Part shown: positions 6,503 through 55,676 of the stretch, one piece after another
Numbering within the stretch: position 1 is the first letter of the stretch
Layout of the letters: every line of letters begins with the position of its first letter
DNA from: Hominimerdicola alba 8
GTDB taxonomy: Bacteria > Bacillota > Clostridia > Oscillospirales > Ruminococcaceae
Assembly (NCBI RefSeq): GCF_000178155.2
Contig: NZ_ADKM02000018.1
Coordinates: forward strand, 62,001-126,000
Direction: 5' to 3'
DNA: 64,000 nucleotides
Notes under the pieces: generated by a model
Databases searched by the model: none
Told to the model about the DNA's origin: nothing
What the model saw: the letters and a program-made list of their open reading frames with translations, nothing else
Made by a program: the position numbers and the translations under genes

Positions 6503-7693
6503 TTACTTCTTTGCGTTCATTCTCGCGATACGCTTTTTCTCGGCAGCTGCCTTCATTGCATCGCCCTTTGCATCGCCTGCTGTTTCCTTTTCGTATTCGC
6601 TTATGATGTCGTTTGCATCATCGTCGTCATCATCAAGGAAATTACCCAGACGCTTCTTGAAAGCCGTACCCGAACTTCCGTTCTTTGTAAGGTACTCGCT
6701 CTTAAGGAACTCGCTCGCCTGCGGTGTCATGACGCTCTGTGTCGTGGTGCTGTTGTATACAGATGTTGCGGCAGTAACGCCTGTAGCCGCCTGAGGCATC
6801 TGCATGTTCTGCATCTGCTGATATGGGTTGCTGAACTCCTGACCGCCCTGCATGCCGTAGCCCTGCTGGGGGTAGCCCTGTCCCATGTAACCGCCCTGCT
6901 GGGGGTAACCCTGATTCATATAGCCGCCCTGCTGAGGATAGCCCTGATTCATGTAGCCGCCCTGCTGAGGATAGCCCTGATTCATATAGCCGCCCTGCTG
7001 GGGATAGCCCTGATTCATATAACCGCCCTGCTGAGGGTAGCCCTGTCCCATATAGCCGCCCTGCTGGGGATAGCCTTGTCCCATATAGCCGCCCTGCTGG
7101 GGATAACCCTGTCCTGCACCCTGCTGAGGCTGCTGTGCCTGAGCGCCGTTGTTTTCAAGAGAATCAGCACTTACAGATGAGCCGCTGTCATCAAACAGGA
7201 AAGAAGATGCTGCCACAGGTTCAGACGGCGCAGCTTCCTCATAGAACGGATTGCTCTTGTCAACACTGAAACCGTCAACAAACTCCGAAGGTGCAAGCCC
7301 TTCATCGCTGCTGCCCGCCAGTTCACCGAGAGGTGTTTCCCTGTTGCCGTCACAGGCAGCCACACAACGGCTGTTCGAGCCGTTCATGTCAAGAAACTTC
7401 GCTGCTGTTTCAGCATCGGGTGTCACAGTCATCTCACTGCCTATATCGAATATCAACAGCTGTGCCGCGATGGTCTTGCCTGCCGCCTTCATCGCATTCA
7501 GTGCAAAATCAGCCGCGCTGCAAACGACTATATCATCGCCCGAAACGGTTATACCTGTTATGCCGCTGTAAATAGTGCCGTCCTCTGCCGCCACAAGACA
7601 TAGCTCGCTGCCCATCGGCGCATAGCTGCTTTTCTCGGTACGAATTTTCTCTGACAGTGCTGTTGCTTTGTTCTTCAAAGTTGCAATATCCAT
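6503..7693 (-). CDS. Unknown protein with Gln/Gly/Tyr-rich tandem repeat
   Basis: About 396 residues; family not recognised. Residues ~1-120 form a compact domain of alternating hydrophobic and small residues. An acidic, Ser/Ala-rich linker follows, then eight near-identical 11-residue units ([11 protein letters not shown] or YMNQG) at about residues 195-285. The tail has an Asp run (DDDDD) and a basic end. The repeat resembles prion-like low-complexity segments that phase-separate in other proteins. Start is ATG at 7693; a GTG at 7702 behind AAAGGA is the alternative. It lies 81 bases after the kinase gene on the same strand and ends at a terminator, so the three genes from 10176 probably form one operon. 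Confidence 0.7.
6850..7110 (-). repeat. Eight tandem 33-bp coding repeats
   Basis: Each unit encodes YPQQGGYM plus G/N-Q-G; the last unit diverges to [11 protein letters not shown]. The units differ mostly by silent changes, which points to selection on the peptide or recent expansion. Copy number may vary between strains. Confidence 0.9.
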
Positions 7694-12940: not shown

Positions 12941-12945
12941 ATTAT

Positions 12946-13106
12946 ATGGTTATCCCGCTGATACACCACAAAAAAACAGCGATCTAGCAGAACTTAAAGT
13001 GGTTGGCGGATATCTTTCCCCCGCCGCAGGCGGGGGAAAGATATCCTGCAATCAATTATCCTTTTGTTTACCACATTTTCAGCCGGTGTGCTAAAGGAAT
13101 AGTCAT
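12946..13106. mobile_element. MITE family 2, full copy
   Basis: 161 bp. The left end reads ATGGTTATCCCGCTG and the right end GTGTGCTAAAGGAATAGTCAT, an imperfect terminal inverted repeat. A central GC-rich palindrome (CTTTCCCCCGCC/GGCGGGGGAAAG) forms a stable hairpin. No coding capacity. It lies between the converging sensor and CorA genes. Confidence 0.8.
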
Positions 13107-13145
13107 ATTTTATTATGACTGCATTTTTGTGACCGTTATATCCTC

Positions 13146-15166: not shown

Positions 15167-15269
15167 TATAGCAATCCAACTTTTTAAATTCACAAAATCC
15201 AGTCGCAAAAGCTGGGATTTATGGGTTTTGTGACTGGATTTTGTCTGAATTTTAAGGCGGATTGCTATA
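15167..15269. mobile_element. MITE family 1, full copy
   Basis: 103 bp including the TA at each end. Ends are TATAGCAATCC and GGATTGCTATA. The interior is a long imperfect palindrome (CACAAAATCCAGTC ... GACTGGATTTTGT). Read toward radC, its edge creates TGCTATAAT, an extended -10 sequence. Confidence 0.9.
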
Positions 15270-23658: not shown

Positions 23659-23675
23659 GTACTTTTTATTTCATA

Positions 23676-23724
23676 ATGTGGTCATCCCGCTGACACACTG
23701 CAAAAAAAGCGGCTACACAGGACT
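23676..23724. mobile_element. MITE family 2, left-end fragment
   Basis: ATGTGGTCATCCCGCTG and the next ~30 bases match the start of family 2. The copy stops exactly where a family 1 element begins, and no right end is found beyond it. Confidence 0.75.
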
Positions 23725-23827
23725 TATAGCAATCCGCCTTAAAATTCAGACAAAATCCAGTCACAAAACCCATAGATCCCAGCTTTTGCGACTGGATTTT
23801 GTGAATTTAAATAGTTGGATTGCTATA
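23725..23827. mobile_element. MITE family 1, full copy, inverted
   Basis: 103 bp with TATAGCAATCC and GGATTGCTATA ends, reversed relative to the copy at 15167. It abuts the truncated family 2 fragment on one side and a 68-bp block shared with 51437 on the other. Confidence 0.9.
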
Positions 23828-23939: not shown

Positions 23940-24010
23940 AGATGATGTATGATTATGTAAAAAACAGGGGCATTCCGCCCTGCATCAAAACAAGGAAGGA
24001 ATTGATTTAC

Positions 24011-25957
24011 ATGGGACTTACACTGACTGAAAAGATCCTTAAAGCGCATCTGGTTGACGGCGAGTTCGTCAAGGGACAGGAGATCGGTATACGCATCGAC
24101 CAGACCCTTACTCAGGACGCTACGGGCACTATGGCTTATCTCGAATATGAGGCTATGGGCGTGCCCAGAGTAAAGACTGAGAAGAGTGTGGCTTATATCG
24201 ACCACAACACCCTCCAGTCGGGCTTTGAGAACGCTGATGACCACAGGTTCATCGGTTCGGTCTGCAAAAAACACGGCATCTATTTCTCGCGTCCCGGCAA
24301 CGGTATCTGCCATCAGGTACATCTGGAGCGCTTCGGCATTCCCGGCAAGACCCTGATAGGTTCTGACAGCCATACCCCCACAGGCGGCGGCATCGGCATG
24401 ATAGCTATCGGCGCGGGCGGACTTGATGTTGCAGTCGCTATGGGCGGCGGTGCTTACTACATAACCTACCCCAACATCGTAAAGGTGAACCTGACAGGCA
24501 AGCTGTCACCTTGGGTCTCCGCAAAGGATGTTATCCTCGAAGTTCTGAGAAGAATGTCCGTAAAGGGCGGTGTCGGCAAGGTCATAGAGTACTGCGGCGA
24601 GGGCGTAAAGACTCTGTCTGTACCTGAGAGAGCTACCATCACGAACATGGGCGCTGAGCTGGGTGCTACAACATCTATATTCCCCTCTGATGAGATAACA
24701 CTTTCCTTCCTTAAGGCACAGGAAAGGGCTGAGGTATGGACTGAACTTAAGGCTGACGATGACGCAGTTTACGATGAGGTCATCGACATCGATCTCGGTG
24801 CGCTTGTACCGATGGCTGCATGTCCGCACAGCCCCGACAATATCAAGACTGTTGAAGAACTGGGCGGCATGAAGATCGATCAGGTCTGCATCGGTTCCTG
24901 CACAAACTCTTCTTATGTTGACATGATGAAAGTCGCTCACATACTTAAGGGCAAGACCGTTCACCCCGATGTTTCGCTGGCTATCGCTCCCGGTTCAAAG
25001 CAGGTGCTCAATATGATCGCTGAGAACGGCGCTCTGGCTGATATGATCGCGGCAGGCGCAAGAATACTGGAGAGCGCATGCGGTCCCTGCATCGGTATGG
25101 GTCAGGCTCCTAACTCAAAGGGTATCTCCCTGAGAACTTTCAACAGAAACTTCCTCGGCAGATCGGGAACTAAGGACGGTCAGATCTATCTGGTATCGCC
25201 CGAACTGGCTGCTGCATCGGCAGTTGCAGGCGTGCTGACCGACCCCAGAACTCTGGGTGAGATGCCTGAGATAAAAGTACCCGAACACTTCAAGATAAAC
25301 GATAACATGGTAGTTCCTCCCGTTGCTGAGGCTGACATGGACAGCGTTGAGGTGCTGAGAGGTCCCAACATCAAGCCTTACCCCGAAACCGCTCCGCTGG
25401 TGGAGAACATCAGCTGTCAGGTATCGCTGAAAGTAGGCGACAACATCACTACCGACCACATCATGCCCGCAGGCGCTAAGATACTGCCTCTGAGATCGAA
25501 TATCCCTGCTATCTCACAGCACTGCTTCACTGTATGCGATGAAGATTTCCCCAGAAGAGCAAAGAATATGGAGAAGTCCATCATCGTCGGCGGTTCCAAC
25601 TACGGTCAGGGTTCTTCGAGAGAACATGCGGCGCTCGCACCTCTGTATCTGGGCATAAAGGCAGTTCTGGTGAAGAGTTTTGCGCGTATCCACAGGGCTA
25701 ACCTGATAAACGCAGGCATTCTCCCGCTGACATTTGTTAACGAAGCTGACTACGAAAAGATAGGTCAGGGCGACGAGATCGAGATCGCAAATGTACGCGC
25801 TGATATCGAAGCAGGCAAGACTCAGCTGACTGTTGTAAACAAGTCCACAGGTGCCGAGATACCTGTTCTCTGTGAACTGACAGGCAGAACTAAGGATATT
25901 ATCCTCGCAGGCGGTCTGCTTGACTACACACGCGAACAGCTTTCTGCTAATTCATAA
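24011..25957 (+). CDS. acnA: Aconitate hydratase
   Basis: 648 residues, the compact (mitochondrial/archaeal-like) form rather than the ~890-residue bacterial AcnA. It interconverts citrate and isocitrate in the cytosol. The 4Fe-4S ligands are visible in QVCIGSCTNS and ESACGPCIGMG; GSDSHTPTGGG and GGSNYGQGSSREHAA mark the active site, the last in the swivel domain. The start at 24011 follows AAGGAAGGA. With isocitrate dehydrogenase at 27971 it forms the oxidative branch that supplies 2-oxoglutarate for glutamate; citrate synthase is not in the window. The last codons and stop overlap an intergenic repeat. Confidence 0.93.
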   Translation: MGLTLTEKILKAHLVDGEFVKGQEIGIRIDQTLTQDATGTMAYLEYEAMGVPRVKTEKSVAYIDHNTLQSGFENADDHRFIGSVCKKHGIYFSRPGNGICHQVHLERFGIPGKTLIGSDSHTPTGGGIGMIAIGAGGLDVAVAMGGGAYYITYPNIVKVNLTGKLSPWVSAKDVILEVLRRMSVKGGVGKVIEYCGEGVKTLSVPERATITNMGAELGATTSIFPSDEITLSFLKAQERAEVWTELKADDDAVYDEVIDIDLGALVPMAACPHSPDNIKTVEELGGMKIDQVCIGSCTNSSYVDMMKVAHILKGKTVHPDVSLAIAPGSKQVLNMIAENGALADMIAAGARILESACGPCIGMGQAPNSKGISLRTFNRNFLGRSGTKDGQIYLVSPELAAASAVAGVLTDPRTLGEMPEIKVPEHFKINDNMVVPPVAEADMDSVEVLRGPNIKPYPETAPLVENISCQVSLKVGDNITTDHIMPAGAKILPLRSNIPAISQHCFTVCDEDFPRRAKNMEKSIIVGGSNYGQGSSREHAALAPLYLGIKAVLVKSFARIHRANLINAGILPLTFVNEADYEKIGQGDEIEIANVRADIEAGKTQLTVVNKSTGAEIPVLCELTGRTKDIILAGGLLDYTREQLSANS

Positions 25958-26319: not shown

Positions 26320-26499
26320 ATGAGATCAAGAAATCCCGTGACTATCATCGGGGCACTGGTGCTGTGCGGCGTGATATTCGTGGCGCTGAAATTATTATTT
26401 CCCGGCAGGAGCAGCAGGTGGTACATGAACAGGATAAAGCTGACAGCGGGAATAGTACTGTTTATCACGGCGCTGATACTGTTTTTCACGAGGCAGTGA
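26320..26499 (+). CDS. 59-residue small membrane protein
   Basis: Family not recognised. The peptide starts MRSRNPVTIIGALVL and has two hydrophobic helices (about 7-27 and 41-56) around a basic loop with LFPGRSSRWYMN. AAGGAG lies 13 bases before the ATG, a rather long spacing. A second, interrupted gene one base downstream encodes a relative sharing LFPxRSxxWYxN, which argues that both are real. Two helices with a short polar loop suggest a small subunit or a holin-like protein, but this is only shape. Confidence 0.7.
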   Translation: MRSRNPVTIIGALVLCGVIFVALKLLFPGRSSRWYMNRIKLTAGIVLFITALILFFTRQ

Positions 26500-26500
26500 C

Positions 26501-26790
26501 ATGCAGAAAGATAAACTTCCTTTGCCGCTTATTCTATAGCAATCCAACTTTTTAAATTCACAAAATCCAGTCGCAAAAGCTGGGATTTATGGGTTTTGTG
26601 ACTGGATTTTGTCTGAATTTTAAGGCGGATTGCTATAGTCATATCCATCGCCTGCTGTGCGGTGTACTTCTTTTTGAGATACCTGTTCCCGAACAGGAGC
26701 AGGAGTTGGTATAACAACATGCTGAAAGTGGTCGGCATGTCAGTTATCATCATAGCCGTGATGATATATTTCGTTACAACACATCAATGA
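26501..26790 (+). pseudogene. Paralogous small membrane-protein gene interrupted by a MITE
   Basis: The gene starts ATG at 26501, one base after the previous stop, and reads MQKDKLPLPLIL up to codon 12. A family 1 MITE then brings an immediate TAG. If the element (26537-26635) and one TA are removed, the frame continues exactly with VISIACCAVYFFL, then YLFPNRSRSWYNN, to TGA at 26788. That gives a 62-residue two-helix protein similar to its neighbour. As it stands the gene is broken unless the 3' part is translated separately; no good start is seen there. Confidence 0.8.
26537..26635. mobile_element. MITE family 1 inside a coding sequence
   Basis: 99 bp, flanked by TA on both sides (26535-26536 and 26636-26637). 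It has the same orientation as the copy at 15167. The host reading frame on both sides gives direct proof of the insertion and of TA target duplication. Confidence 0.92.
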
Positions 26791-26801
26791 GGTGGTAATC
26801 T

Positions 26802-27857
26802 GTGGCTGATGACAAGAGAATAAACCGCCGTCAGAGCATGGACGCTCTTTTTGGCGCAGATGCGGGCGAACTCAGCGAGGAGTTTTTTGAGGAAAAACTC
26901 AAAGAGATGGGCGATGCCCCGAAAGTCACAAAAGGCATGGCGCTCAAACACCAAAAACTCACCGAAGACCCCGTTTCACTGGTGGAAAGCGCCGAAAAAG
27001 GCAGGGTGGTGCGCGATGATAAAATGTCCGCACTGTTCGGTGCTGATGATATCGTACCCGATGAGAACGAGTTTGAACAAAAGCTGAAAGCCCTCGAAGA
27101 AAAGCAGGAAACTGCTCCCGAAAAACAGCTGACCGAGTATGAGCGGTGGCTGGAAGAGGGTCTGAAAAATGATAAGGGCTACGGTGCGAAAGTCGCCTAT
27201 ACAGGCGAGGTGACCGAAGAGCCCGACAGCTACGCAGGCTCTACTCACGAAAGCTATGATAAGTGGCAGGCTGAGACACAGGAGCTTATCCGCAACCTTA
27301 AAAGACGCGATGCAAGGATAAAAGCCCGCGATGACAATATCCACGATGCGCTCTACCTCACATCAGTGATGAAAGGCGGCGCGGGCATGGAGCATTCGGG
27401 CGACGGCGCACGCTTTATGGATATCATAATATCACTGGCATGGTATGTGCTTTTCGCCTTTACGTTCGTGGGACTTTTCAAAGTAGCAGGCGGCGAGGGC
27501 ATGGACCTCTGGGCAGGCGGAGGGATAGGCGGCGTTGTGGGCGCTGTCGTGCGCTACAACGGCAGGCAGGATTATCCTCTGTGGCAGGCTTTGCAGAAAG
27601 GCGCGGTGGAAGTCGCGCTGTGCATAGCATTCATACTTTGCTGGATATTGAACTGTTTTGCGAGTATGAATTTCGCGGCTGTCATGTTCATAGGCGGCGT
27701 ATTCGCATGCTTCGGCTTGTACCTGCGCGAAAGGCTGTTTGAAGCCCGCCCCGCTAAGGAGGCGTTCTACAGGTGTCTGCCGATATTTATCGGGACAGTG
27801 GCGCTGATAGTGCTGGTGGTTTTGGTCGTGGTGATGTATCGCGAGGCCGGCTTATGA
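26802..27857 (+). CDS. Unknown protein with four C-terminal membrane helices
   Basis: 351 residues, GTG start behind GAGGTGG; family not recognised. The N-terminal cytosolic part contains two related units, MDALFGADAGELSEEFFEEKL and MSALFGADDIVPDENEFEQKL-like, at about residues 13-35 and 73-96. Charged helices follow, including YERWLEEGL. From ~205 on there are about four hydrophobic helices with a Gly-rich GGGIGGVVGAVVRY. The start lies 11 bases after the interrupted small membrane-protein gene, so the three genes likely form one operon. The paired LFGAD motifs may dock a partner (inference). Confidence 0.75.
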   Translation: MADDKRINRRQSMDALFGADAGELSEEFFEEKLKEMGDAPKVTKGMALKHQKLTEDPVSLVESAEKGRVVRDDKMSALFGADDIVPDENEFEQKLKALEEKQETAPEKQLTEYERWLEEGLKNDKGYGAKVAYTGEVTEEPDSYAGSTHESYDKWQAETQELIRNLKRRDARIKARDDNIHDALYLTSVMKGGAGMEHSGDGARFMDIIISLAWYVLFAFTFVGLFKVAGGEGMDLWAGGGIGGVVGAVVRYNGRQDYPLWQALQKGAVEVALCIAFILCWILNCFASMNFAAVMFIGGVFACFGLYLRERLFEARPAKEAFYRCLPIFIGTVALIVLVVLVVVMYREAGL

Positions 27858-27923
27858 CGGCGCATTCCACATGAAAGAACGTTTTTCGGTGTATGCCGAT
27901 GAACATAGAACCAAATTACCGCA

Positions 27924-27945
27924 GGAATGTTTACTATAACGTTCC
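27924..27945 (+). promoter_or_regulatory. Inverted repeat upstream of isocitrate dehydrogenase
   Basis: GGAATGTT and AACGTTCC, eight bases each with one G-T pair and a 6-base spacer, 25 bases before the start codon. It could be an operator or a leader hairpin. No convincing promoter for this gene was found. Confidence 0.45.
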
Positions 27946-27970
27946 TGATAATAAGAAGGAGGAAACCCCA

Positions 27971-29185
27971 ATGGCAAAGATCCAAATGAAAACACCATTA
28001 GTCGAGATGGACGGCGATGAGATGACCAGAATAATCTGGCAGGAGATAAAGGACATACTGATAACCCCATATGTCGATCTCAAAACAGATTATTATGATC
28101 TCGGACTTGTCCACAGAAACGAAACAAACGATCAGGTAACTGTTGACTCTGCCAATGCTACCAAGAAGTACGGCGTTGCTGTAAAGTGCGCTACCATCAC
28201 CCCTAATGCGGCAAGAATGCCCGAATATAACCTCAAAGAGATGTGGAAGTCCCCCAACGGCACTATTCGTGCAATGCTGGACGGCACCGTTTTCAGAACA
28301 CCTATACTGGTAAAGGGCATCACCCCCTATATCCCCACATGGACAAAGCCTATCACTATCGCACGTCACGCATACGGCGATGTTTACAAGAACGTTGAGA
28401 TGAAATGCCCCGCAGGTGCAAAGGCTGAACTGGTATGCACCGACAAGGACGGCAACGAGAGCCGCGAAACTATCTACAACTTCGAGTGCGACGGCGTTAT
28501 ACAGGGCATGCACAACAAGTCCACCTCCATCGCATCTTTCGCAAGGAGCGTTTTCAACTTTGCCCTTGACACCAAGCAGGACGTTTGGTTCGCTACAAAG
28601 GACACCATCTCCAAGAAGTACGACCACACTTTCAAGGATATATTCTCCGAGATATTCGAGAACGAGTACAAGGCTAAGTTTGAAGCCGCAGGCATAGAGT
28701 ATTTCTACACACTGATAGATGATGCCGTTGCAAGAGTTATCCGTTCCAACGGCGGCTACATCTGGGCTTGCAAGAACTATGACGGCGATGTTATGTCCGA
28801 TATGGTGGCTACTGCTTACGGTTCGCTGGCTATGATGACTTCTGTACTGGTATCGCCCGACGGTGTTTACGAGTATGAAGCCGCACACGGCACAGTTCAG
28901 CGCCACTACTACAAGCACCTTAAGGGTGAGGAAACTTCCACCAACTCTGTTGCAACACTGTTCGCATGGACAGGCGCATTCCGCAAGAGAGGTGAACTGG
29001 ACGAACTGCCCGAACTGGTGAACTTCGCTGACTGCCTTGAAAAGGCTACCATACAGACCATCGAAGACGGCATAATGACAGGCGACCTTTATCTGCTCTC
29101 CAAGCTGGAGAACAAGCAGAAAGTCAACACTGAGGACTTCCTCAAAGCCGTTGACGAAAGGCTGAAAAAGTTACTTAACGTATAA
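27971..29185 (+). CDS. icd: NADP-dependent isocitrate dehydrogenase, dimeric eukaryotic-like type
   Basis: 404 residues. It converts isocitrate to 2-oxoglutarate with NADP+. The sequence follows the class shared by eukaryotic cytosolic/mitochondrial enzymes and some bacteria: [17 protein letters not shown] at the start, the substrate loop around GTVFRTPI, the metal site YDGDVMSD, and the NADP site [14 protein letters not shown]. Start at 27971 is set by GAAGGAGGAAA. It is followed by a clear terminator. Its near neighbour aconitase supplies the substrate; the genes between them are unrelated membrane proteins. Confidence 0.94.
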
Positions 29186-29203: not shown

Positions 29204-29243
29204 GCCCCTGAGCCTTTAAAAGCGCTCAGGGGCATTTTTTATT
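29204..29243 (+). terminator. Terminator after icd
   Basis: GCCCCTGAGC/GCTCAGGGGC followed by ATTTTTT. Confidence 0.92.
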
Positions 29244-29297
29244 ATGACTATCCCTTTAGCACACCAACTAAAAATGCGGTAAACAAAAGGATAATTC
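29244..29297. mobile_element. MITE family 2, right-end fragment
   Basis: ATGACTATCCCTTTAGCACA, then the sequence matches the reversed right third of the copy at 34974 (AAAAGGATAATT), then similarity stops. Its left end is missing. Confidence 0.7.
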
Positions 29298-29419
29298 TGC
29301 GGAGTAAATATCACCTTTCAGTGAACCAATATCGCATCGCTCATTTGTATCCGTTCTTTCGGTCATTGATCCGAAATTGCATTTCACGCATACCTGATCG
29401 CAGCTTACGCATATTCCTG

Positions 29420-30225: not shown

Positions 30226-30254
30226 TCCCCGGAGGGAACGGTGTAAATGCGATT

Positions 30255-30417
30255 ATGACTATCCCTTTAGCACACCACTGCAAAATACCTTTATCAATGA
30301 GGAAAATCTGAGTTGATGTTATCTTTCCCCCGCCGCAGGCGGGGGAAAAATATACAACAAGAACCTTAAGTTCTGTATAGCCGCTGTTTTTGTGGTGTGT
30401 CAGCGGGATAACCACAT
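30255..30417. mobile_element. MITE family 2, full copy, inverted
   Basis: 163 bp from ATGACTATCCC to GGGATAACCACAT with the central GC palindrome. It lies between the CPBP-like gene and a converging membrane-protein gene. Confidence 0.82.
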
Positions 30418-30435
30418 TTTTTATTCAGCCGATGG

Positions 30436-34886: not shown

Positions 34887-35123
34887 TATAGCGATCCGCC
34901 TTATAATTCAGACAAAATCCAGTCACAAAACCCATAGATCCCAGCTTTTGCGACTGGATTTTGTGAATTTAAAATGTGGTTATCCCGCTGACACACCACA
35001 AAAACAGCGGCTATACAGAACTTAAGGTTTTTGGCGTATGGCGCTCAATTATCCTTTTGTTCACCGCTTTTTTAGTTGGTGTGCTAAAGGGATAGTCATA
35101 ATTTAAAAAGTTGGATCGCTATA
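34887..35123. mobile_element. MITE family 1 split by a nested family 2 element
   Basis: Outer ends TATAGCGATCC and GGATCGCTATA. The family 1 sequence runs to 34973, is broken by the family 2 copy, then resumes at 35100-35108. Without the insert it would be about 103 bp. Confidence 0.92.
34974..35099. mobile_element. MITE family 2 nested in family 1
   Basis: 126 bp from ATGTGGTTATCCC to GGGATAGTCAT. AATTTAAA stands at both borders (34966-34973 and 35100-35107), while uninterrupted family 1 copies have it once. This fixes the element ends and an 8-bp target duplication (9 bp if the first A is counted). Confidence 0.92.
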
Positions 35124-35790: not shown

Positions 35791-35794
35791 ATTT

Positions 35795-35933
35795 ATGTGG
35801 TTATCCCGCTGACACACCAAAATAAACGATGTTATATTGGGAACTGAATATAGTTGGCGGTTATCTTTCCCCCGCCGTAGGCGGGGGGAAAGATAATATC
35901 AACACTGTGGTGTTGTATTAAAAGGATAACCAT
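35795..35933. mobile_element. MITE family 2, full copy
   Basis: 139 bp from ATGTGGTTATCCC to GGATAACCAT with the central GC palindrome. Located between converging genes. Confidence 0.8.
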
Positions 35934-38587: not shown

Positions 38588-38677
38588 TATAGCAATCCAA
38601 CTATTTAAATTCACAAAATCCGGTCGCAAAAGCTAGGATCTATGGATTTTGTCTGAATTTTAAGGCGGATCGCTATA
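38588..38677. mobile_element. MITE family 1, short form
   Basis: 90 bp with TATAGCAATCC and GGATCGCTATA ends; it lacks GTTTTGTGACT of the full form. It ends two bases from the stop codon of the LRR gene. Confidence 0.88.
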
Positions 38678-44763: not shown

Positions 44764-44818
44764 TTTTGTTTCCTCCTGAGATATATAATTGCGTTAAATT
44801 AGGGATGATCAATTTAAT

Positions 44819-44983
44819 ATGTGGTTATCCCGCTGATACACCAAAATAAACGATGTTATATCGGGAATTGAATACAGTTGGCGGTTATCTTTCCCCCGCC
44901 TGCGGCGGGGGAAAGATAACATCACCTCAGTTTTTACTCATTGATAAAGGTATTTTGCAGTGATGTGCTAAAGGGATAGTCAT
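44819..44983. mobile_element. MITE family 2, full copy
   Basis: 165 bp from ATGTGGTTATCCC to GGGATAGTCAT with the central GC palindrome. A phrase like GGGAT(C)GTC..ATTTAATAT flanks it on both sides. The bases from here to 45135 show no gene. Confidence 0.82.
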
Positions 44984-45135
44984 ATTGCGAAAAGTTCGGG
45001 ATCGTCCATTTAATATTTTTACATATCTTATTGTAGCACCATTTTGTGGTCAAGTCAATGACAATTTAATGTCAATTTATACAATTTTGTATGGAAAGTT
45101 TGTGCGAAAAAATAATAGCAAATTTACATAATCTA

Positions 45136-51591: not shown

Positions 51592-53223
51592 ATGGGTCTT
51601 ATGGTTCCTATGATAACAAGAGGCGCACTGGGCAGGAACGACCTGCTCAACAACTACGGCACAACGAATTTCGTTCAGCCGCCTATCAATGACCTGACAA
51701 GTCTTATGATGCGAGGCAGTATGGGCGGCGGCATGATGGGCGGACTCGGCGGCGCGATGATGGGCGGCATGGCTGATCCTGTCGGCGGCATCATGGGCGC
51801 GGCGGCTAACCCTGTCGGCGCTGTGATGGGCGGCATGGGCAGTCCTGTCGGAGGAATGGGCGGCTCGATGATAAATCAGAGTTCTGTCGGCGGATTTGTC
51901 GCAGGTGCGGCTGTGGGTGCAGTGGCAATGAATGCCATGCAGAACGGCGGTCTTAACGGCGCAAACTCCATCGACCACCCGAACAGAGGAAATCAGCCGC
52001 AGAATAACTACAACAACGGCAGCGGGTACAACAATCAGCCGCAGAACAACTACAACAACGGCGGAGGGTACAACAATCAGCCGCAGAATAACTATAACAA
52101 CGGCGGCGGGTACAACAATCAGCCGCAGAACAACTACAACAACGGCGGGGGGGACAACAATCAGCCGCAGAACAACTACAACAACGGCGGCGGGTACAAT
52201 AATCAGCCGCAGAACAACTATAACAACGGCGGCGGGTACAATAATCAGCCGCAGAACAACTATAACAACGGCGGCGGGTACAATAATCAGCCGCAGAATA
52301 GCTACAACAACGGCAGCGGGTACAATAATCAGCCGCAGAATAACTACAACAACGGCGGCGGGTACAACAATCAGCCGCAGAACAGCTACAACAACGGCGG
52401 CGGGTACAACAATCAGCCGCAGAGAAACAGCGACCCGCTGGGAGATATTTTCAACCAGCCATCTCAGCCGCAGAGGAATGTACAGCCGAACCCCTCACAG
52501 ATGGGGCAGAACGCTTTGGAGCCTGTACGCAATTCACCAAATTCGGGCAACACGAATTTCGGGGTACAGCACCCTGTCAGCACTGCGCCTGCGGCTTACG
52601 CATCAAATCCCCAGCAGGCTCAGCCTGTTGTCAGGAGAAACCGCGTAGAACCTACGGGCGACCGACTGGCTAAGGGTCAGAAATACTCAATAAAAGACCG
52701 CGATGGCAGACCTGCCACTCAGCTTAAGATATGTCTTGGCTGGGATATCAAAGACGGCAGATGTGAACTTGATGCTTCGGCTTTCATGCTGGCAGACAAC
52801 GGCAAGGTAGTGGGCGATGAATGGTTCATCTTCTATGGTCAGCCTGACAGTCCCGACAACGGCGTACACTACAAGGTCTATAAAGATGACCCAAATTCCC
52901 CCGATGATGCGGCGATAGTGCTTGACCTGACCCGCGTTGACCAGAGGGTGCAGAAGATAGCCCTTGCGGTGACCATCTACGAGGCTTCACAGCATGCACT
53001 GAACTTCGGCATGGTGCAGAACCTTTATGCACGCATACTTGACAGCCGCACGAACCGTGAGATAGCATGTTTCCGCATGGACGAATGCTATTCCAGCGTT
53101 ACGGCTATGGTGCTGGGCGAACTTTACCGCTACAAGGGCGAGTGGAAGTTCAACGCTGTGGGTTCGGGCGTAAATCAGGATCTCGCACAGTTCTGCGGAA
53201 TGTACGGCGTGGCGCTCGAATAG
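51592..53223 (+). CDS. TerD-domain protein with Asn/Gln/Gly/Tyr repeat
   Basis: 543 residues. Residues 1-125 are Gly/Met-rich (MMGG, ANPVGAVMGG). Residues ~134-280 are about ten 14-residue units NNQPQNNYNNGGGY. After a linker, residues ~355-543 are a TerD domain: ICLGWDIKDGRCELDASAFML, WFIFYGQPDSPD, LDLTRVDQRVQKIALAVTIYEA and ELYRYKGEWKFNAVGSG. TerD domains bind calcium and occur in tellurite/stress-response clusters. The low-complexity part suggests self-assembly (inference). RBS AAAGGAGGC; followed by an AIM24-type gene. Confidence 0.88.
   Translation: MGLMVPMITRGALGRNDLLNNYGTTNFVQPPINDLTSLMMRGSMGGGMMGGLGGAMMGGMADPVGGIMGAAANPVGAVMGGMGSPVGGMGGSMINQSSVGGFVAGAAVGAVAMNAMQNGGLNGANSIDHPNRGNQPQNNYNNGSGYNNQPQNNYNNGGGYNNQPQNNYNNGGGYNNQPQNNYNNGGGDNNQPQNNYNNGGGYNNQPQNNYNNGGGYNNQPQNNYNNGGGYNNQPQNSYNNGSGYNNQPQNNYNNGGGYNNQPQNSYNNGGGYNNQPQRNSDPLGDIFNQPSQPQRNVQPNPSQMGQNALEPVRNSPNSGNTNFGVQHPVSTAPAAYASNPQQAQPVVRRNRVEPTGDRLAKGQKYSIKDRDGRPATQLKICLGWDIKDGRCELDASAFMLADNGKVVGDEWFIFYGQPDSPDNGVHYKVYKDDPNSPDDAAIVLDLTRVDQRVQKIALAVTIYEASQHALNFGMVQNLYARILDSRTNREIACFRMDECYSSVTAMVLGELYRYKGEWKFNAVGSGVNQDLAQFCGMYGVALE
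51991..52426 (+). repeat. About ten tandem 42-bp coding repeats
   Basis: Each encodes NQPQN-N/S-YNNG-G/S-GYN with mostly silent differences between units. It is a likely site of copy-number change. Confidence 0.92.
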
Positions 53224-54158: not shown

Positions 54159-55676
54159 TTACTGATCGTCATTGTTGTTCTTCTTGCGTCTTACAGCGAA
54201 GAAGCACAGACCAACTGCTGCTGCGAACTCTGCCGCATTCACCAGTACTCTTGCACCTGTGTTGGGGTTGCTTGTATTGGTGGTGGTAGAAGTTGTGGTA
54301 GTAGCCTTGCTGCTTGTCGAAGTGCTTGAAGTGCTGCTTGCAGAACTGCTTGTGCTGCTGCTTGCACTGTCATCGGTCGCGGAAGACTCATCGGTGTCAG
54401 CCTTGCTGCTGTCAGCGGTGGTGTCACCCTCAGGAACAGAGCTGTCCATGTCAGGACCGGGTCTGCTGCTGTCTTCGTTGTCCTTCTGCTCTTCGGAACT
54501 GCTGTCGTCAACGACATCAGTCTTGGAAGACTCATCACCATCGACCACAGTCTTCTTCTTAGCATCGCAAACGGTTATTTCGTCTGCTTCGTTGCCGTTT
54601 GTTACAACTACGTAACCCTCAGTGGAATCCTTATCAAAAGTATCCTTGACCAGCTTTTCGGTGGTTACGGTTACCTTGCCGTCCTCAACGGTGAACTTGA
54701 TCTCGGAAGTGATTATCTCAAATTCCTCGCCTGCTTCGTTGGTCACGGTATCGCCTGTTTCGGTCAGTGTGTAGGTGCCGTCTTCAAGTTCGATTTCAAA
54801 CTTCTCGCCCTTCTTGGAAGTCCAGCTTTCGCCTACGGTCTTGCCGTCAGAATCGGTCACAGTCAGGATTGCACCGTCAAGTTCTTCCTCGCCTGTGATG
54901 TCGGTCTTGTTGATGATGACCTTTGTCTTTTTCTTCTTAGCGTCGCAAACGGTGATCTCGTCTGCATCGTTGCCGTTGGCAACTACTACGTAACCCTCAG
55001 TGGAATCCTTGTCGAAATCGTCCTTGACCAGCTTTTCGGTGGTTACGGTTACCTTGCCGTCCTCAACGGTGAACTTGATCTCGGAAGTGATTATCTCAAA
55101 TTCCTCGCCTGCTTCGTTGGTTACGGTATCGCCTGTTTCGGTCAGTGTGTAGGTGCCGTCTTCAAGTTCGATCTCAAACTTCTCGCCCTTCTTGGAAGTC
55201 CAGCTTTCGCCTACTGTCTTGCCGTCGGAATCGGTCACAGTCAGGATTGCACCGTCAAGTTCTTCCTCGCCTGTGATGTCGGTCTTGTTGATGATGACCT
55301 TTGTCTTTTTCTTCTTAGCGTCGCAAACGGTTATCTCATCTGCTTCGTTGCCGTTGGTAACTACTACGTAACCCTCAGTGGAATCCTTGTCAAAAGTATC
55401 CTTGACCAGCTTCTCGGTGGTTACGGTTACCTTGCCGTCCTCAACGGTGAACTTGATCTCGGAAGTGATTATCTCAAATTCCTCGCCTGCTTCGTTGGTT
55501 ACGGTATCGCCTGTTTCGGTCAGTGTGTAGGTGCCGTCTTCAAGTTCGATCTCAAATTTCTCGCCCTTCTTGGAAGTCCAGCTTTCACCTACTGTCTTGC
55601 CGTCAGAATCGGTCACTGTCAGGATAGCACCGTCAAGTTCTTCCTCGCCTGTGATGTCGGTCTTGTTGATGATGAC
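54159..55676 (-). pseudogene. C-terminal, sortase-anchored part of a split Cna_B adhesin
   Basis: About 505 sense codons in the same frame as the large gene upstream, cut off by a single TAA at 55677-55679. It holds three almost identical 126-residue Cna_B units (VIINKTDITGEEELDGA... to ...ICDAKKKKTK), a Ser/Asp/Glu/Thr wall-spanning stretch, a sorting signal NPNTG, a hydrophobic helix and RRKK. On its own it has no signal peptide or convincing ribosome site, so it would not reach the surface unless the stop is read through or is absent in other cells. Confidence 0.85.
54543..55676 (-). repeat. Three 378-bp tandem repeats in the adhesin
   Basis: Period exactly 378 bases (126 residues), copies nearly identical in DNA. 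They are good substrates for recombination, and the stop codon lies at their upstream edge. Confidence 0.9.

Follow-up and report, generated by a model that had tools for sequence, protein, structure and literature searches.

The RUP element of the pneumococcus is described as a palindromic, TA-inserting repeat of 107 bp that numbers 108-110 copies and, in some strains, disrupts genes (PMC2229807, PMC3049150), and it has been proposed to be mobilised by IS630-Spn1. The Correia or NEMIS elements of Neisseria are reported to include a form of about 107 bp with inverted ends, a terminal TA and a duplicated target (PMC2229807). MITE-like repeats of Thiomargarita carry TATAG ends and are IS630-derived in the view of their authors (PMC4853749), and IS630 and ISY100 are both described as inserting at TA with duplication of the TA (PMC2170065). 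Our literature search found no paper on MITEs in Ruminococcus and, for Faecalibacterium and Clostridia, none on these elements among the matches listed, as far as the retrieved text of those papers goes.

The split small gene described here, gene 2, occupies positions 26501-26790 on the plus strand of the window, by which we mean the whole 64,000-nucleotide stretch of DNA that was analysed. Its 5′ piece (26501..26536, +) starts with an ATG at 26501 and comprises codons 1-12, which close with C-TA at 26534-26536; the final two bases are the left copy of the target TA (26535..26536), the duplication of which was examined at other copies of the element. A 99-bp MITE copy follows (26537..26635, +), then the right TA copy (26636..26637) and the 3′ piece (26638..26790, +), in which the frame picks up again at GTC (26638) and stays intact over 50 codons up to the TGA stop (26788-26790). 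Codon 13 is a TAG stop whose T is the first base of the element. Since the element brings this immediate stop, gene 2 now encodes a 12-residue peptide. Removal of the element and one TA leaves 290 - 101 = 189 nt, that is, 62 codons and a stop, without a further stop or frameshift, and the restored frame starts one base past the stop of the upstream gene 1. The arrangement of the pieces, the ends of the element between its two TAs and the exact restoration of a 62-residue frame all agree with the original prediction, which had been made from the sequence. Frame length by itself does not speak for gene 2, for an antisense frame of 85 aa is the longest one to span the joined site; the evidence for its being a gene is its homology to gene 1.

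We consider it about 85% probable that a recent jump of a TA-inserting MITE split gene 2, with duplication of the TA, an IS630-type transposase acting in trans and a gene that was dispensable. In this reading, the non-autonomous element would have transposed into the CTAG at codons 12-13 of gene 2, the second of two paralogous genes for small predicted membrane proteins in the interval that an aconitase-like gene bounds on the left and an isocitrate-dehydrogenase-like gene on the right. The identity of the element to its consensus and the otherwise intact frame suggest that the insertion is recent, as had been proposed.

The left anchor of this interval (23942..25957, +) is an open reading frame whose product we take, from its protein sequence, to be aconitase-like and whose end has a counterpart in 28 of the 29 genus genomes, its own among them; the right anchor (27893..29185, +) is a frame whose product is presumably isocitrate-dehydrogenase-like. 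Gene 1 (26320..26499, +) encodes a predicted two-helix membrane protein of 59 aa, modelled with helices at residues 6-26 and 32-58 (mean pLDDT 75), and has orthologues in six genus relatives (G018, G008, G026, G013, G003 and G002). A search of its own genome matched the downstream piece of gene 2 to this intact paralogue with 36% identity over 44 aa (E 1.6e-6), and the Smith-Waterman score was 89, whereas shuffled sequences averaged 22.6 (sd 4.4). The two share LFPxRSxxWYxN, the joined start of gene 2 lying two residues farther from it than the start of gene 1, and the predicted paralogy of the restored protein to its upstream neighbour was thus borne out by alignment and shuffles. The pair has no match over the curated cut-off in Pfam or NCBIfam, in line with its having been called undescribed. 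Gene 3 (26802..27857, +), the right neighbour, encodes a predicted membrane protein of 351 aa with no Pfam match at E 1 and no NCBIfam match over cut-off; it is unclassified and carries a repeated N-terminal motif, MDALFGxD...EEFFEEKLKEM. The content of the interval varies among Ruminococcus relatives (L010, L011, L012, L013-L017), in which gene 1, a membrane protein of about 100 aa and gene 3 occur in differing sets and orders.

The original prediction named two comparisons with relatives. The first, a search for an empty site at the gene 2 locus, gave a negative result: an element-free, intact version of the gene was found in none of the 28 other genus genomes. The second, a search for relatives of the two small proteins, showed that the restored protein does have relatives, namely gene 1 and its orthologues, and the refuting outcome named in the prediction, a protein with none, did not occur; but no clear orthologue of gene 2 was found in these 28 genomes. 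Among the 29 genus genomes, the downstream piece of gene 2 convincingly matches only itself, gene 1 and the gene 1 orthologues, and a profile of the small proteins matched G000 (the genome that carries the window) and G003, with one further weak match, among 347 family genomes, few of which belong to the genus. The slot between gene 1 and gene 3 holds an unrelated gene for a membrane protein of about 100 aa in G018 and G008, and in G026 it holds a diverged homologue of the gene 1/gene 2 family that is apparently start-less (score 54 against 25.6 ± 4.6 for class-preserving shuffles). Because a clear orthologue is missing from the 28 genomes and G026 has only the start-less homologue, gene 2 was probably dispensable. 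The same two observations, together with the different gene in the slot of two relatives, would also fit a gene 2 that was already decaying, or a duplicate that had never functioned, in which case the MITE hit a relic and broke nothing. We regard this as possible but doubtful, since the 62-codon frame holds no other stop or frameshift, begins one base after the gene 1 stop and retains LFPxRSxxWYxN.

As to the element itself, its ends (TAGCAATCC...GGATTGCTA) are terminal inverted repeats, and its sequence is the same as the consensus built from 51 full copies of 103 bp, the figure of 99 bp being the length between the two TAs; 18 of the 51 copies are equal to the consensus. Across the Ruminococcus-like genome G000 (4.05 Mb), its core gave 158 matches (78 + 80) compared with none for the reversed pattern, and of the 40 copies that were scored, 21 are identical over 103 bp. 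The window itself contains an identical copy at 15167..15269 (+), a further full 103-bp copy at 23725..23827 (-) and a 90-bp copy at 38588..38677 (+). The RNA fold is a single long hairpin (-50.1 kcal/mol, z -10.2). With a length below 200 bp, many copies, no transposase-sized frame inside, terminal inverted repeats and target duplication, the element displays the features by which bacterial MITEs are recognised, which supports its identification as a typical non-autonomous MITE, as it had been named. No plasmid or phage match to the element was obtained, and Rfam returned no family at the gathering score; 24 sub-threshold Rfam matches, mostly to models of miRNA precursors, were taken as chance. 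At other copies (L119, L136), long frames run across the joined flanks, and more intragenic insertions are possible.

The target was analysed in 59 parsed full-length copies of 85-110 bp. Nearly all of them start with TATAG (56/59) and all finish with CTATA (59/59); the preceding base is a pyrimidine in 56/59 and the following base a purine in 52/59. A YTAR target was found at 49/59 copies, compared with 245 of the 3233 TA sites in the window, an enrichment whose p value of 3.6e-45 assumes an independence that nested copies violate; the target in gene 2 was CTAG. When the flanks were joined and matched to other sequence, with a tolerance of 8 mismatches over 36-40 nt, they matched with a single TA in 12/59 cases, with no TA in 2/59 and with TATA in none of the 59. 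Judged by their flanks, 11 of the 12 single-TA matches appear to sit inside a second family of repeats and do not count as separate loci. The remaining match is the orthologous empty site in G018 of the copy at 38588, with CA, not TA, at the target. The predicted TA duplication is supported by joined flanks at other copies and would extend to gene 2. The second interspersed family, into which copies of the element have inserted, lies in the window at 12943-13112, 23663-23726, 29241-29299, 30252-30425, 34961-35105, 35794-35890 and 44818-44984.

That these traits place the element with IS630/Tc1-mariner had been part of the original prediction, and this held only in part. Insertion at TA with TA duplication, in YTAR, is what MITEs dependent on such transposases show. 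Their genome commonly, though not necessarily, also encodes an IS630 transposase; none was found in G000, where the domain PF13358 had no match. The element's own ends did not rise above shuffles. Across the 29 genus genomes PF13358 gave nothing over cut-off and two weak sub-threshold loci (G008, G019), which had no convincing matching ends and were rejected as partners, while 26 of the 347 family genomes had a match over cut-off. A lone TATAGCAATCC near G000:C75:82100 was likewise rejected as an autonomous partner, as inspection revealed no transposase-like frame. The ends of one IS630 (L147 in G311; TAGAGCAACCC) resemble those of the element by eye; scored against 30 IS630 loci, however, the left end of the element reached 30 (null maximum 31) and the right end 29 (null maximum 29). 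Among 13 end sequences compared, one was clearly above shuffles, namely G030a, the end of an element that shares the hairpin core described below, which matched an IS630 of G353 at 38/44 positions (maximum of 60 shuffles, 33). Since the TA is duplicated within YTAR and the ends of core-sharing elements match an IS630, we infer a transposase of the IS630/Tc1-mariner type, probably acting in trans; the link is plausible and indirect, resting on the TA/YTAR target and on the core-sharing relatives. Loss, or a copy left out of the assembly, may possibly account for the missing transposase in G000.

IS5-type elements prefer YTAR, and a YTAR-preferring transposase of such another family could have moved the element instead, which would be consistent with its target preference, the missing IS630 domain in G000 and ends that match no IS630 above shuffles. 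We consider this unlikely: the duplication comprises TA only and not four bases, PF13340, the sole IS5-type domain searched, had no match in the 29 genus genomes, and the G030 elements do have ends that match an IS630. IS630 also reportedly prefers the TA in CTAG, to go by the title of Tenzen and Ohtsubo 1991. A role for the insertion as a functional switch or regulator, with the hairpin changing downstream expression in a transcript from gene 1 to gene 3, is very improbable. In its favour, the palindrome is very stable and sits between closely spaced same-strand genes, and ERIC elements are described as able to destabilise transcripts (PMC2229807); against it, 56 copies have no strong orientation with respect to neighbouring frames (upstream, 32 -, 17 + and 7 none; downstream, 29 +, 22 - and 5 none) and an Rfam family at the gathering score is absent.

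The apical hairpin core of the MITE (26574..26598, +; CAAAAnCTnnnATnTATGGnTTTTG) is common to elements elsewhere. Among 347 family genomes, BLAST found the element in other genera (G123, 88-93%; G322, 84-92%) and partial matches in G216, G204, G138, G030 and G262 (centre), G173 (right arm) and G119. Four of the five centre matches (G216, G138, G030 and G262, but not G204) lie within TA-bounded inverted ends of other sequence, as scored by a rule defined for this analysis. Of 394 order genomes, 13 contained the core pattern with up to 2 mismatches (G000, 159 matches; G030, 60; G401, 10; G701, 9; the remaining nine, 1-2 each), with 2 matches in total for the reversed control, and several of the single 2-mismatch matches look like chance. 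Beyond G000, 20 of 32 core matches lie within TA-bounded inverted ends; as two pairs coincide, this corresponds to 19 of 30 distinct sites, compared with 33 of 1800 positions drawn at random from these loci. Sites with such ends span three other families (G401 in f9, G409 and G588 in f20, G508 in f7). On this excess over random positions, we judge the hairpin tip shared among TA-ended palindromes with different terminal repeats to be real, its conservation being overstated because most relatives were found via the core itself. Core-bearing TA-ended palindromes with differing terminal repeats can be seen at loci L183-L218 and L254-L257.

For the apical stem, 46 segments from 42 chosen loci plus the window copy, with other core loci left out, were reduced to 35 at 88% identity and, after one opposite-strand duplicate was dropped, to 34 aligned sequences. 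Over 8 pairs, 88.6% of cells are paired, a value reached by 2 of 500 shuffles. Three pairs are changed on both sides (reached by 36 of 500), the covariation score was reached by 0 of 500, and positions 32 and 46 do not pair in 19 of the 34 sequences. Stem pairing in a DNA palindrome does not demonstrate RNA function. Coding from the ATG in the loop was rejected: that frame stays free of stops for 11 codons in 25 of the 34 sequences, and the other two frames do so in 21 and 15, too small a difference. The G030 element was found in 19 phage records, all labelled 'Bacteriophage sp.' and from human faecal samples, the four inspected being marked UNVERIFIED and without annotation, and in 0 plasmids; viral contigs gave 0 matches to the exact core pattern.

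We tentatively raise the possibility of an order-wide superfamily of palindromic, TA-inserting MITEs, each about 100 bp long, that would have kept the tip as a functional module while their terminal repeats diverged or were replaced. Such changes of terminal repeats would probably track different IS630 transposases, and the tip would be a candidate site for a host protein or the transposase, or an RNA hairpin. If the core does persist through these changes, MITEs may contain an internal module that is under selection, and this, if true, would help explain the continued amplification of elements that lack a transposase. The shared tip is more interesting than the natural knock-out of gene 2 itself, which is clean, has exactly defined ends and so serves as a marker of recent MITE activity. 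Elsewhere in the window, tandem arrays lie at 51907-52536, 54553-55608 and 6827-7144, with units of 42, 378 and 33 bp.

Compared with the known systems, as these are described in the papers at hand, RUP is likewise palindromic and TA-inserting (107 bp and 108-110 copies, against 99 bp and 158 core matches), but it belongs to another host and is partnered by an IS630 whose ends are similar, whereas none was found for the element; the likeness is one of description. Also by description, Correia/NEMIS elements resemble it in size, inverted ends, TA termini and duplication, and the Thiomargarita repeats in their TATAG ends, although the latter, unlike the element, stem from an intron hairpin region. 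IS630 and ISY100 share the insertion at TA and its duplication but are autonomous and carry a transposase. Because gene-breaking RUP insertions are already in print (PMC3049150), the splitting of a gene by a MITE, as seen at gene 2, is an ordinary event of a known kind.
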